A stretch of 46,480 nt of DNA, taken from contig JAJPHU010000085.1 in the NCBI GenBank assembly GCA_021325115.1, positions 1 to 46,480 on the forward strand, read 5' to 3'. The notes beneath the pieces are model-generated. The model saw only the letters and a program-made list of their open reading frames with translations. It searched no databases and was not told where the DNA came from. This document shows, one piece after another, positions 32,680 to 35,992 of the stretch. The DNA is from Planctomycetota bacterium (GTDB lineage Bacteria; Planctomycetota; Planctomycetia; Gemmatales; Gemmataceae). The stretch's first letter is position 1. Every line of letters begins with the position of its first letter. A program made the translations under genes and the position numbers.

Positions 32680-34428
32680 ATGTGGCACAGGTTGAATCTT
32701 AGCAGAACGAAGGGCTTGTTTGCTCACCTTGTCACCTTGTCACCTTGTCATCTTGTCATCTTTTGTTCGGCAGGGTTGACGGGGTTGAACGCCATTAAGC
32801 CGTTGCACGTCGATGACGCCACCTTCTCTTTCAACGCCGCACAAATTGCGGCTCATCCGCTCGATCCCTACGGCTACGTCATGCTGCGTTGGAGCGAAGC
32901 TGTGCCGGCGCTGCACGCTCTGGCACCGCCACTGCTGCCCTACTGGTGGGCGGTGGCGATCCGGATGTTCGGTGAACGGCCGGTGCTGTGGAAGTTATGG
33001 CTTTTTCCCTTTGCTCTGATTTTCGTTGCTTCCTTGGCGGCGCTCTTGCATCGCTTTGCTCCTTCTGTGGCAATGCCCTTGCTTATCCTGCTGGTATTCT
33101 CGCCGGTCTTCTTGCCGAGCTTGAATTTGATGATGGACATTCCGGCCCTGGCTTTGAGCTTGCTGGCGCTGGGGCTGTTTTTCCGGACTTGCGAGAGAGG
33201 CTCCTTGGCCCTGGCTGTTCTCGCCGGCTTGATAGCGGGATTGGCCATGCAGACGAAATATACAGCCTTTCTCGCCCCTGGTATTATTCTCATTTATGCT
33301 CTTTTACGGAGAAAATTGCTCCTGGGGTTGGCCGCCGCCGGGGTTGCCGGGGCGCTCTTCGCTGCCTGGGAAACGATGCTCTTTTTCCGCTACGGCGAAT
33401 CGCATTTTATATACCAGCTTTTCCAGGGCGACAATGGCGATCAGCCAAAATCGGTTCTTCTGAACAGTCTTTTTCCTCTTCTGGGCGGTGCTGCACCTAC
33501 TTTGGCCTTATTGGCGCTGACAGCGTTATCTATGCCGCGTTGGCTGCTGCTTCTTGCGTCCTTGCTTGCGATCCTTCCATTCTTACTTCTTCTATGTCCC
33601 GATGCCCTCTGCTTCGGCGGGAGCGTGTATGAACTGGCCAATATCCTCTTTGCTTGCAACGGGGTAGTGGTGTTGCTGAGCGTGGGATGGGCAGCGCGGC
33701 GTCTCGTCCAATACAAAACTTATCCACCTGCCGCGCCAGCAAAAGGTGAAAGCCGCCCTTGCTGGCGTGGCGAGCTGGCGAAGCCATTTCTGTTCCTCGT
33801 GCTCTGGTTTGCCTTCGAGCTGGCCGGTTACATCGTCATCAGCCCATTCCCTGCCGTCCGTCGGATCATGGGGACCAGCATCACGGCGACCTTATTGGTT
33901 GGCTGCTTGGCCGATCTGTCGCTGCGGGAATCATGGCGGAGAAACGTGCTGCATGCCTTGGCCGCTGGGACGGTCCTGTTCGGCCTTGGCTTTTTCGCCG
34001 TCGATTTCTTGGAGGCGCGGGCCGAACAACAGGCCGCCTGCGACGCAGCCCAGCACATTCGCCGGGAACATCCACAAGCTACTATCTGGTACGCGGGCTA
34101 CTGGGGTTTTCAGTACTATGCCGAGAAATGGGGGATGAAACAGATCGTTCCTGTCCAACATACAGAGAAGGGGGGGCCAGCTTTATGGCCCCCCTCGTAC
34201 CTCCACCGCGGTGATTGGCTCGTCATTCCTGATGCGAGCATCCCTCAGCAGGAAGTAGACTTGAATCAGCCGGAACTGGAGCCGAAGGGCCACATTGCCA
34301 TTGACGATGCAGTTCCACTATCCACGCTCATGAATTACTACGCCGGCGCCGTGCCGTTGCGCCATCGCTGTGGCCCTCGAATTGTCCTTCGCCTATTTTA
34401 CGTCAAAGACGATTTTATTTGTCGCTAA
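32680..34428 (+). CDS. Membrane glycosyltransferase-like protein (GT39/ArnT type)
   Basis: A 582-residue integral membrane protein with about ten hydrophobic helices. Near the N-terminus 'KPLHVDDATFSFNAAQI' has the paired acidic residues of the first periplasmic loop in the PMT/ArnT (GT-C fold) families, and a soluble C-terminal domain follows residue ~430. Polyprenyl-linked sugar transfer is likely but the acceptor is unknown. The first ~30 residues (AHLVTLSPCHLVIF) are encoded by tandem TTGTCACC-type repeats, so the first helix is poorly formed and the true start is uncertain. It follows carB by 21 bases. Its end overlaps the convergent thioredoxin-NHL gene by 14 bases. Confidence 0.7.
   Translation: MWHRLNLSRTKGLFAHLVTLSPCHLVIFCSAGLTGLNAIKPLHVDDATFSFNAAQIAAHPLDPYGYVMLRWSEAVPALHALAPPLLPYWWAVAIRMFGERPVLWKLWLFPFALIFVASLAALLHRFAPSVAMPLLILLVFSPVFLPSLNLMMDIPALALSLLALGLFFRTCERGSLALAVLAGLIAGLAMQTKYTAFLAPGIILIYALLRRKLLLGLAAAGVAGALFAAWETMLFFRYGESHFIYQLFQGDNGDQPKSVLLNSLFPLLGGAAPTLALLALTALSMPRWLLLLASLLAILPFLLLLCPDALCFGGSVYELANILFACNGVVVLLSVGWAARRLVQYKTYPPAAPAKGESRPCWRGELAKPFLFLVLWFAFELAGYIVISPFPAVRRIMGTSITATLLVGCLADLSLRESWRRNVLHALAAGTVLFGLGFFAVDFLEARAEQQAACDAAQHIRREHPQATIWYAGYWGFQYYAEKWGMKQIVPVQHTEKGGPALWPPSYLHRGDWLVIPDASIPQQEVDLNQPELEPKGHIAIDDAVPLSTLMNYYAGAVPLRHRCGPRIVLRLFYVKDDFICR
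32724..32760 (+). repeat. Tandem TTGTCACC-type repeat at a gene start
   Basis: About four and a half 8-base units (CACCTTGT, later CATCTTGT) lie within the first codons of the membrane glycosyltransferase gene. They are translated as HLVTLSPCHLVIF if the upstream ATG is used. Confidence 0.85.
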
Positions 34429-35992
34429 TACCGTGAAGGACGGATGTAGGCGGCTCAACACCTTGCAGGTTTAGTGTGCTGACTTCCTTGGATTCCAGAT
34501 CAATCACCTGAATGCGGTGAGCGTTGGTGTCGGCGACGTAGAGTTTGCCGTCGGCGTAGCTGATGCCGCCCGGTTCATTAAACAATTTGGCCTTCTTATC
34601 GTCGCCGACAAACGTTTTACAAGAGCGTGTGAGTGGGTCGAGGATTTTGATTTTGCTGTTGTAAGTGTCGGCTACATACAGCTTGCCATCGACATAGACG
34701 ATGCCTAAAGCGTGCTGCAAACGCGCCGCCGGTCCAATGCCGTCTGTGTCGCCGAAATCGAACAGGCCGGTACCCACCAGTGTTGAGACATCACCTCTGC
34801 CGTCCAGTGGAATCGCACGGACGGCGCTAACCTCGCTGTCAGCGACGAACAGTTTGGTTCCATCGCTGGCCAGGCCGCTTGGCTGGGCAAAGCAGCTGGC
34901 CTGACGCGGGCCATCTACAAGATTCTCGAAGGCCGTGCCCGCAAACGGGACGACAGTGTGCCTGGTCAGGTCCATTACCCAAATTTGATGGCAGCCGGCC
35001 ATGGCAATGTACAGCTCGTTGCCGTGTACCAGCAAGTCCCACGGACTGTTGAGTCCCGTGTGCCGGGCATCGCCGCCGCGGCGGAAGTCCATGCCTTGTT
35101 GGCCAGTACCGGCGATGGTGCGAACTGTCCGCTTTTTCAGATCAAGCGCGCGGATCATGTGATTTTTGCGATCCGCTACATAGAGAATATCTCCCTTCAG
35201 CGCCAAACCCTGCGGGTCGTTGAAGGACGATTTCTCAAAAGTGCCGTCGGCATGTCCGGGCTTGCCGGTGCCGACAAGAGCAATTTTCTTGCCGTCGAGA
35301 TCGGTGATGACAATGCGATGGTGTGTGCTATCGGAGATGAACAGGCGCTTGCTCGGTCCATCAGCCAGCACTTTGCCGGGGAACCACAAGGGACTTTGGG
35401 CCGCCTTCTCTGCCTGTGCCTTGGTGAAGTATATCGGTTTTTCGTTGAGGGTCTTGTTGGCACGGTGGATGCGAATCAATTGTGAAATAACCAGGTCGGC
35501 GTCGCGAAAAATGTGCTCCTGACCTGGAAATGCCTTGACGAAGTAGCCTTCCGGATCGATGATGCCGACCGACGGCCACGCCTGGACGCCGTAGGCCTGC
35601 CAGATCTTGCGGTCGGCATCGTTGATCACCGGATGGTTCAGCTCATAGCGCTGCATCGCCTTTTCGATACTTTTGGGATCTTTTTCGTTGTCGAACTTGG
35701 CGGTGTGGACGCCAATAACGACCACCTCATTGGGATACTTCTTCTCCAGCCTGACCAGGTCGGGGAAGAGATGCAGGCAATTAATTCAGCACAACGTCCA
35801 GAATTCGAGGATGACGATTTTGCCGCGCAGATCCTTGAGTTTGATGGGTTTATCGGAGCCGAGCGTGGGACCAACGGCACCGTCGAACTCTGGGGCTTTG
35901 AGACGTGGCGTTTGAGCGTATAGTGCCGGCTGCGCGGCAAGGAGCAAGCTCACACACAGGGGCAACACCGTGGCGCGGAGAAAGCGGGACAT
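34415..35992 (-). CDS. Thioredoxin-NHL repeat protein with in-frame TGA, candidate selenoprotein
   Basis: 525 codons in one frame, interrupted only by TGA at 35788-35786 (codon 69). Residues 1-26 are a signal peptide (FLRATVLPLCVSLLLAAQ); residues about 30-175 are a thioredoxin-like domain; from about 195 on come six or so NHL propeller repeats (for example DPQGLAL, NSPWDLLV, AQPSGLAS, NEPGGISYADGKLYVADT). The layout matches NHLRC2. The active-site region reads FWTLC-TGA-INCLHLFPDL, and the family motif there is CCINC, so TGA replaces the first Cys of the CxxC pair. The frame and family similarity continue unbroken after it. The start ATG has AAAGGAGAG upstream. The alternative is a nonsense mutation or sequencing error, but the exact position argues for selenocysteine. 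A predicted SECIS hairpin follows. Confidence 0.85.
35740..35769 (-). promoter_or_regulatory. Candidate bacterial SECIS element
   Basis: In the transcript, 16 bases after the TGA, UCUUC pairs with GAAGA; after one mismatch CCG pairs with UGG (one G-U); after another mismatch CCU pairs with AGG. The apical loop is GGUC (35756-35753), 30 bases after the TGA. A GGUC loop is also found in the E. coli fdhF SECIS, and bacterial SECIS loops usually lie about 16-37 bases after the UGA with a G at the loop's start. The pairing was done by eye. Confidence 0.6.

Follow-up and report, generated by a model that had tools for sequence, protein, structure and literature searches.

A candidate selenocysteine form of the SOQ1/NHLRC2 family in Planctomycetota and two further bacterial phyla

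The locus and its reading frame

The stretch of DNA analysed here (the window) is a contig of 46,480 nucleotides from a Planctomycetota bacterium of the family Gemmataceae (GCA_021325115.1, JAJPHU010000085.1), which carries on its reverse strand a gene for a protein with a thioredoxin-like domain and an NHL-repeat beta-propeller, in which codon 69 is an in-frame TGA that almost certainly encodes selenocysteine (Sec) at the active site. The genome (G000, with the window as contig C372) is a planctomycete draft of 5.6 Mb in 383 contigs, 93.7% complete, and the closest public records are metagenome-assembled genomes of Planctomycetota with 86 and 76% identity. The features of the gene, including a predicted hairpin of the selenocysteine insertion sequence (SECIS) type, are as follows:

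34415..35992, reverse strand: predicted selenoprotein gene, 525 codons plus TAA, TGA codon 69 read as Sec; thioredoxin-like domain, then NHL-repeat beta-propeller (SOQ1/NHLRC2-like)
35912..35992, reverse strand: signal-peptide-like N-terminus, residues 1-27, MSRFLRATVLPLCVSLLLAAQPALYAQ, judged by eye from the sequence
35498..35899, reverse strand: thioredoxin-like (AhpC-TSA/Thioredoxin_8) domain, residues 32-165, from Pfam and the structural model
35777..35791, reverse strand: redox motif C68-U69-I70-N71-C72, for which Cys homologues have CCINC, with Sec69 to Cys72 as UxxC; the model places it at the N-terminus of an alpha helix
35786..35788, reverse strand: in-frame TGA, codon 69, read as Sec; codon shared with the congeners G001, G002 and G003, with G006 and G081, and with about 75 more genomes
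35740..35769, reverse strand: predicted SECIS hairpin with the core CCGACCU-GGUC-AGGCUGG (35763-35746), whose GGUC loop (35756-35753) lies 29 nt past the UGA
34442..35395, reverse strand: NHL-repeat beta-propeller, six-bladed by homology, residues 200-517, from Pfam, the model and a fold match

An earlier sequence-only reading had described one frame of 525 codons, open save for a TGA at 35788-35786 within Cys-TGA-Ile-Asn-Cys, and translation confirmed this. The thioredoxin and NHL similarity that it had reported on both sides of the TGA was borne out by Pfam, with an AhpC-TSA/Thioredoxin_8 match at residues 32-150, spanning the TGA, and the NHL repeats after it, and the UxxC position at which it had placed the TGA is indeed formed by Sec69 and Cys72 of the thioredoxin fold. 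Its interpretation as a secreted or periplasmic redox selenoprotein is also supported, as the hydrophobic, signal-peptide-like N-terminus favours secretion. The TGA, in the context ...LEFWTLC-TGA-INCLHLFPDL..., is the only one in frame, and the 455 stop-free codons that follow it have a chance probability of about 5e-8 at the composition of the window, with the remaining reading frames of 34415-35992 containing 5-26 stops apiece. Third-position GC content is approximately equal ahead of and past the TGA (0.71 versus 0.68). Mechanical calling of open reading frames (ORFs) returned just a 436-aa ORF that starts at an internal GTG (34415-35725), with loss of the first 89 codons, including the active site.

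Conservation and spread of the TGA codon

All four genomes of the genus have the TGA gene with the TGA at the same codon (86, 77 and 77% identity to the window gene), and all four also have a separate CCINC paralogue of approximately 65% identity, located on contigs C148 of G001, C281 of G002 and C64 of G003, and present in G000 as two contig-end pieces (C318/C179). In the alignment of homologues, columns C68-C72 were invariant. The sequence-only reading had expected Cys or TGA at codon 69 of homologues, and nothing else was found: among 87 scored loci, a tally which leaves out 13 loci without a motif match and includes a few loci from one genome fetched twice, 76 read CCINC, 11 read C-TGA-INC and none had another residue.

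A scan with the pattern W-T-x-C-TGA-[ILV]-N-C gave matches in 6/102 genomes of the order, 6/392 across Planctomycetota (5 of them new), 53/400 Chloroflexota and 14/95 Methylomirabilota, while the reversed pattern, used as control, gave no match in any genome set scanned. The Sec form is thus present by pattern in about 80 genomes of these three phyla, a spread which, like the coexisting Cys paralogue, lay beyond the view of the sequence-only reading, whose assignment of Sec is supported here. The matches were fetched in part (for Chloroflexota, 20 of the 53 loci), and the fetched loci gave 45 distinct Sec sequences, of which 44 run for approximately 440-470 codons beyond the TGA. A locus of Methylomirabilota (L168, G916:C144) has a second frame break 100 codons past the UGA, and SelB was not found in that genome; decay after loss of Sec decoding, or an error in the draft, are possible explanations. 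Among plasmids, 222 records matched, two of them over most of the length (40% and 30% identity).

A predicted SECIS hairpin downstream of the UGA

Bacterial SECIS rules (PMC13188914) describe a loop of 3-9 nt with a G in the first two loop positions, located 16-37 nt from the UGA, and a minimum free energy of -7.5 kcal/mol or lower. The hairpin of the window gene falls within these limits, with a GGUC loop at 29 nt and -11.9 kcal/mol, as do those of all 45 Sec genes, compared with 18/79 Cys homologues (P ~1e-17, with related sequences counted as independent). Most of the Chloroflexota genes, and several from Methylomirabilota and planctomycetes, share a 7-bp stem with an AGUU loop 25 nt past the UGA. 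The AGUU loop is present in 26/30 genes of this 7-bp-stem class, and the stem shows double-sided pair changes (GC/CG, or TA/CG/GC, at one position), with all seven pairs found in 0/78 Cys homologues, in either register. In four Chloroflexota loci (L153-L156) the stem is shifted, the core being CUGCCCGC-GUU-GCGGGCGG, and the loop begins 26 nt past the UGA.

In the genus of the window and in G006, the hairpin is CCGAYCU-GGUC-AGGYUGG, with the loop 29 nt past the UGA. The other three selenoprotein genes of G000 share the GGUC loop: both TlpA-like genes have the hairpin CACGAGC-GGUC-GCUCGUG at 31 nt past the UGA, and the SelD gene has GCGCA-GGUCC-UGCGC, where the predicted fold pairs part of the GGUC. 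A GGUC loop common to unrelated proteins of one genome is what a single SelB would demand. The fdhF gene of Escherichia coli likewise carries GGUC in the loop. The hairpin was detected by the rule-based scan with its Cys-homologue control, whereas folding of a 66-nt piece showed no excess stability (z 0.46); Rfam gave no SECIS match in the window, and the lack of a family match was not counted as evidence.

Purifying selection on both sides of the TGA

The gene is under purifying selection on both sides of the TGA. Nonsynonymous and synonymous differences (pN/pS) between G000 and G002 were 0.065/0.574 past the TGA and 0.078/0.654 ahead of it, and other pairs pointed in the same direction. Within the genus, synonymous differences over the hairpin codons (+5 to +16) were 0-0.375, compared with approximately 0.6 otherwise; in the closest pair, G001 and G003, they were 0.13 versus 0.21, and in comparisons with G006 they were 0.26-0.5. 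In the one pair scanned by sliding window, the lowest synonymous windows were located elsewhere, approximately 65-70 codons past the UGA.

Selenocysteine machinery of the genome

The sequence-only reading had proposed a search of the same genome for selA, selB, selD and tRNA-Sec, and all four are present in G000. The tRNA-Sec has a tca anticodon, SelB and SelA adjoin on contig C180, and SelD (C222:3984-4913, reverse strand) is encoded by a Sec gene as well, with an active site AGUAGK (CAGUAGK) that requires Sec. Two further loci, L004 (C357, 1345-1914, forward strand) and L006 (C21, 1420-3093, reverse strand), are TlpA/ResA-like selenoprotein candidates, and the TlpA-like Sec motifs of the genome are WASWUGPC and WGNWUGPC. 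A tRNA-like sequence (L010, C12:3927-4021, forward strand) scored 51.3 bits, above the tRNA-Sec cut-off, and is called by ARAGORN as tRNA-Phe with the unusual anticodon aaa. SelB was found in 10/11 genomes with the TGA gene in a first set and in 39/42 in a second (49/53 overall).

Fold and relation to known proteins

An AlphaFold2 model made with 30 homologues had a mean predicted local distance difference test (pLDDT) score of 87.5, with low confidence for residues 1-25, and placed residue 69 at the start of the active-site helix. The top PDB matches by both sequence and fold were SOQ1 and human NHLRC2 (40% identity). Superposition on the crystal structures gave a TM-score of 0.6 overall and 1.8 Å for the propeller alone, which suggests that model and crystals differ in the arrangement of the two domains. 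The protein has the thioredoxin-like domain and six-bladed NHL propeller by which the family is recognised, and its version of the family motif CC[IV]NC is C-U-I-N-C, with the second Cys replaced by Sec.

Human NHLRC2 (PDB 6gc1; phmmer E 6e-107) shares this architecture and has CCINC at the same place (residues 89-93), in the interdomain cleft with Cys89 and Cys90 exposed (PMC6107167), but it has Cys90 where the window protein has Sec69, the two being aligned, and it carries an extra C-terminal domain. The lumenal domains of Arabidopsis SOQ1 (PDB 7djj-7djm) are the best match by sequence and fold (E 5e-119) and are likewise extracytoplasmic with a CCINC motif; unlike the window protein, SOQ1 is a Cys form, has a HAD phosphatase domain and a transmembrane helix as fusion partners, and functions in chloroplast photoprotection. 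The CCINC paralogue of the genus has the same architecture as the Sec copy, but a Cys codon at the site and a separate position in the tree. By sequence, the nearest CxxC thioredoxin domain outside the family is the C-terminal domain of Mycobacterium tuberculosis DipZ (PDB 2hyx, 5cyy), which has SCINC (PMC6107167), is Cys only and lacks the NHL propeller. Catalogued UxxC selenoproteins, namely the Prx-like thiol:disulfide oxidoreductase (PF00578), the thiol-disulfide isomerase-like protein (cd02966) and the redoxin family protein (PF08534; PMC13188914, Table 1), share the UxxC thioredoxin fold and overlapping Pfam domains, but neither an NHL propeller nor C-U-I-N-C is described for them, a distinction drawn from their descriptions only.

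The window gene is flanked by a PMT-like gene and an HD-domain gene. Of these two neighbours, the sequence fetched from the three congeners contained the HD gene alone, in one congener, which is consistent with the reported lack of conserved gene neighbours for bacterial homologues (PMC6107167).

Evolution of the Sec and Cys forms

The protein tree requires at least three changes between Sec and Cys. As the Sec loci were gathered mostly by pattern and the Cys loci by similarity, the direction of change across the phyla is not decidable from this sample. The Sec clade of the window genus is nested among Cys proteins of its family, and the Sec gene of G006 groups with the Cys paralogue of G006 itself. 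Shared descent of these Sec genes, from the window genus and from G006, was rejected by the approximately unbiased (AU) test for the whole protein (p 0.0015), for the thioredoxin part (0.0002) and narrowly for the propeller (0.042), with the group tested having been picked after the first tree was seen and the G006 gene (L132) lying on a long branch.

Shared descent had been suggested by the SECIS core of this gene (L132, G006:C1), which is identical over 20 nt to those of L029 and L031 (from G001 and G002), Sec genes that lie in another clade of the protein tree than L132. Convergence, local gene conversion or an error in the tree could each account for this. Convergence is plausible because the 5′ arm CCC-GAC-CTG encodes the conserved Pro-Asp-Leu, and selection for a complementary 3′ arm would give the same sequence.

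Proposed mechanism and alternative explanations

The window gene is very probably a full-length selenoprotein gene, for the Sec form of the SOQ1/NHLRC2 family. In the mechanism that we propose, SelB with Sec-tRNA-Sec would bind the GGUC-loop hairpin downstream of the UGA, which would then be decoded as Sec, a step strongly supported by comparison between genomes. The protein would be secreted, as its signal-like N-terminus suggests, and by homology to solved structures the active site may lie in a cleft formed by the propeller and the thioredoxin domain. Within this UxxC selenol/thiol-disulfide exchange centre, Sec69 would attack as the nucleophile and Cys72 would resolve, with C68 as a probable additional conserved Cys. 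The most likely activity would be the reduction or reshuffling of disulfides, or the reduction of sulfur oxidation products, on a cleft-bound protein outside the cytoplasm, and the Sec protein would act beside the separate CCINC paralogue of the same genome. The reaction is the least certain part of this mechanism, and the disulfide-exchange step, taken by itself, is only somewhat favoured.

A number of observations count against this interpretation. The SECIS stem of the window gene holds an A.C mismatch in its upper part, where 35752-35746 reads AGGCUGG compared with AGGUUGG in the congeners, and this may lower Sec insertion from the window allele. The hairpin is also not unusually stable compared with shuffled sequences (z -0.85), whereas that of the sister genome G002 is (z -3.5). 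SelB was not found in 4 of the 53 genomes with the TGA gene (G118, G251, which is 82% complete, G916 and G982), and it was present in 28/38 genomes of the second set without the TGA pattern; since SelB is common in these phyla, its co-occurrence with the gene gives real but modest support. Finally, human NHLRC2 did not reduce insulin in the classical assay (PMC6107167), and thiol-disulfide exchange may thus not be the reaction of the family.

This last result speaks for an alternative, a selenoprotein whose Sec/Cys centre does not act on disulfides but serves, for instance, in chemistry on peroxides or persulfides or in metal or cofactor binding, with the propeller as the catalytic or binding unit. 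The SOQ1-dependent change in the plastid lipocalin, which is not reversed by dithiothreitol, points the same way (PMC6107167, PMC10173003), and the redox activity of the SOQ1 domain is still called open in PMC10173003, which also refers to subsequent structural work in favour of redox transfer. As thiol oxidoreductase selenoproteins typically have UxxC where the active site of thioredoxin lies (PMC13188914, PMC2398784), we consider such chemistry possible but less likely than disulfide exchange.

The explanations that dispense with Sec fare far worse. A pseudogene or sequencing error, with a Cys codon mutated or misread as TGA and the downstream ORF a relic, would need only one base change from TGC or TGT, in a draft assembly and in a genome where the Cys paralogue could render the Sec copy redundant. 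It is nevertheless extremely improbable, as TGA occupies the same codon in many other genomes, selection past the TGA is strong and a SECIS hairpin is present; sequencing error was excluded by the three further congeneric genomes that share the codon, and a pseudogene was rejected on the four congeners together with the selection analysis. Reading of the UGA by a suppressor tRNA, or its reassignment to Trp or Cys in this lineage, would likewise keep the frame open and under selection, but there is hardly any probability left for it, given that TGA occurs only at the redox Cys, that table 11 leaves neighbouring conserved genes, carB and leuS among them, intact, that the genome has a dedicated tRNA-Sec (tca) with SelA, SelB and SelD, and that SECIS hairpins go with the Sec genes and are less frequent among Cys homologues. 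Equally implausible is a pair of proteins, a 68-residue secreted peptide and a propeller protein initiated internally at the GTG of the 436-aa ORF found by mechanical calling, since the thioredoxin domain would be cut at its active site, where homology and selection are continuous.

Novelty and significance

Among the 119 prokaryotic selenoprotein families catalogued in 2026 (PMC13188914, Table 1), no entry is named as NHL, SOQ1 or NHLRC2-like, and the family could already be present there under a broad heading such as 'redoxin family protein, UxxC'. In the literature searched, 'selenoprotein' was not paired with 'NHL repeat-containing', and prior notice of the family is possible; among NCBIfam models, none scored above its cut-off (for the selenoprotein model WAxxUGC_long, 19.8 bits versus a cut-off of 300). 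We give about even chances to a broader proposal, in which the Sec form of SOQ1/NHLRC2 would make up a selenoprotein family that is missing from the catalogues and widespread in at least three phyla. Cys would have changed to Sec more than once, with at least two origins within one planctomycete family, each hairpin converging on the GGUC loop of the other selenoprotein genes of G000, and the second Cys of CCINC (Cys90 of NHLRC2) would be the catalytic nucleophile family-wide, this being the position at which evolution puts selenium.

The prokaryotic selenoproteome gains a family that is apparently uncatalogued, and in about 80 of its genes ordinary ORF calling would cut the coding sequence short at the active site. 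The recurrence of the recoded gene in about 80 genomes of three phyla suggests a catalytic selenium/sulfur site in this little-understood family. In humans NHLRC2 is essential, and its mutation causes FINCA disease, while plant SOQ1 governs a form of photoprotection, and whether the thioredoxin domain of these proteins is a redox enzyme is unsettled. A natural Sec at one residue of CCINC argues for a working nucleophile and indicates which residue this would be, and the bacterial Sec and Cys paralogues of a single genome offer a ready-made pair with which its role may be tested.

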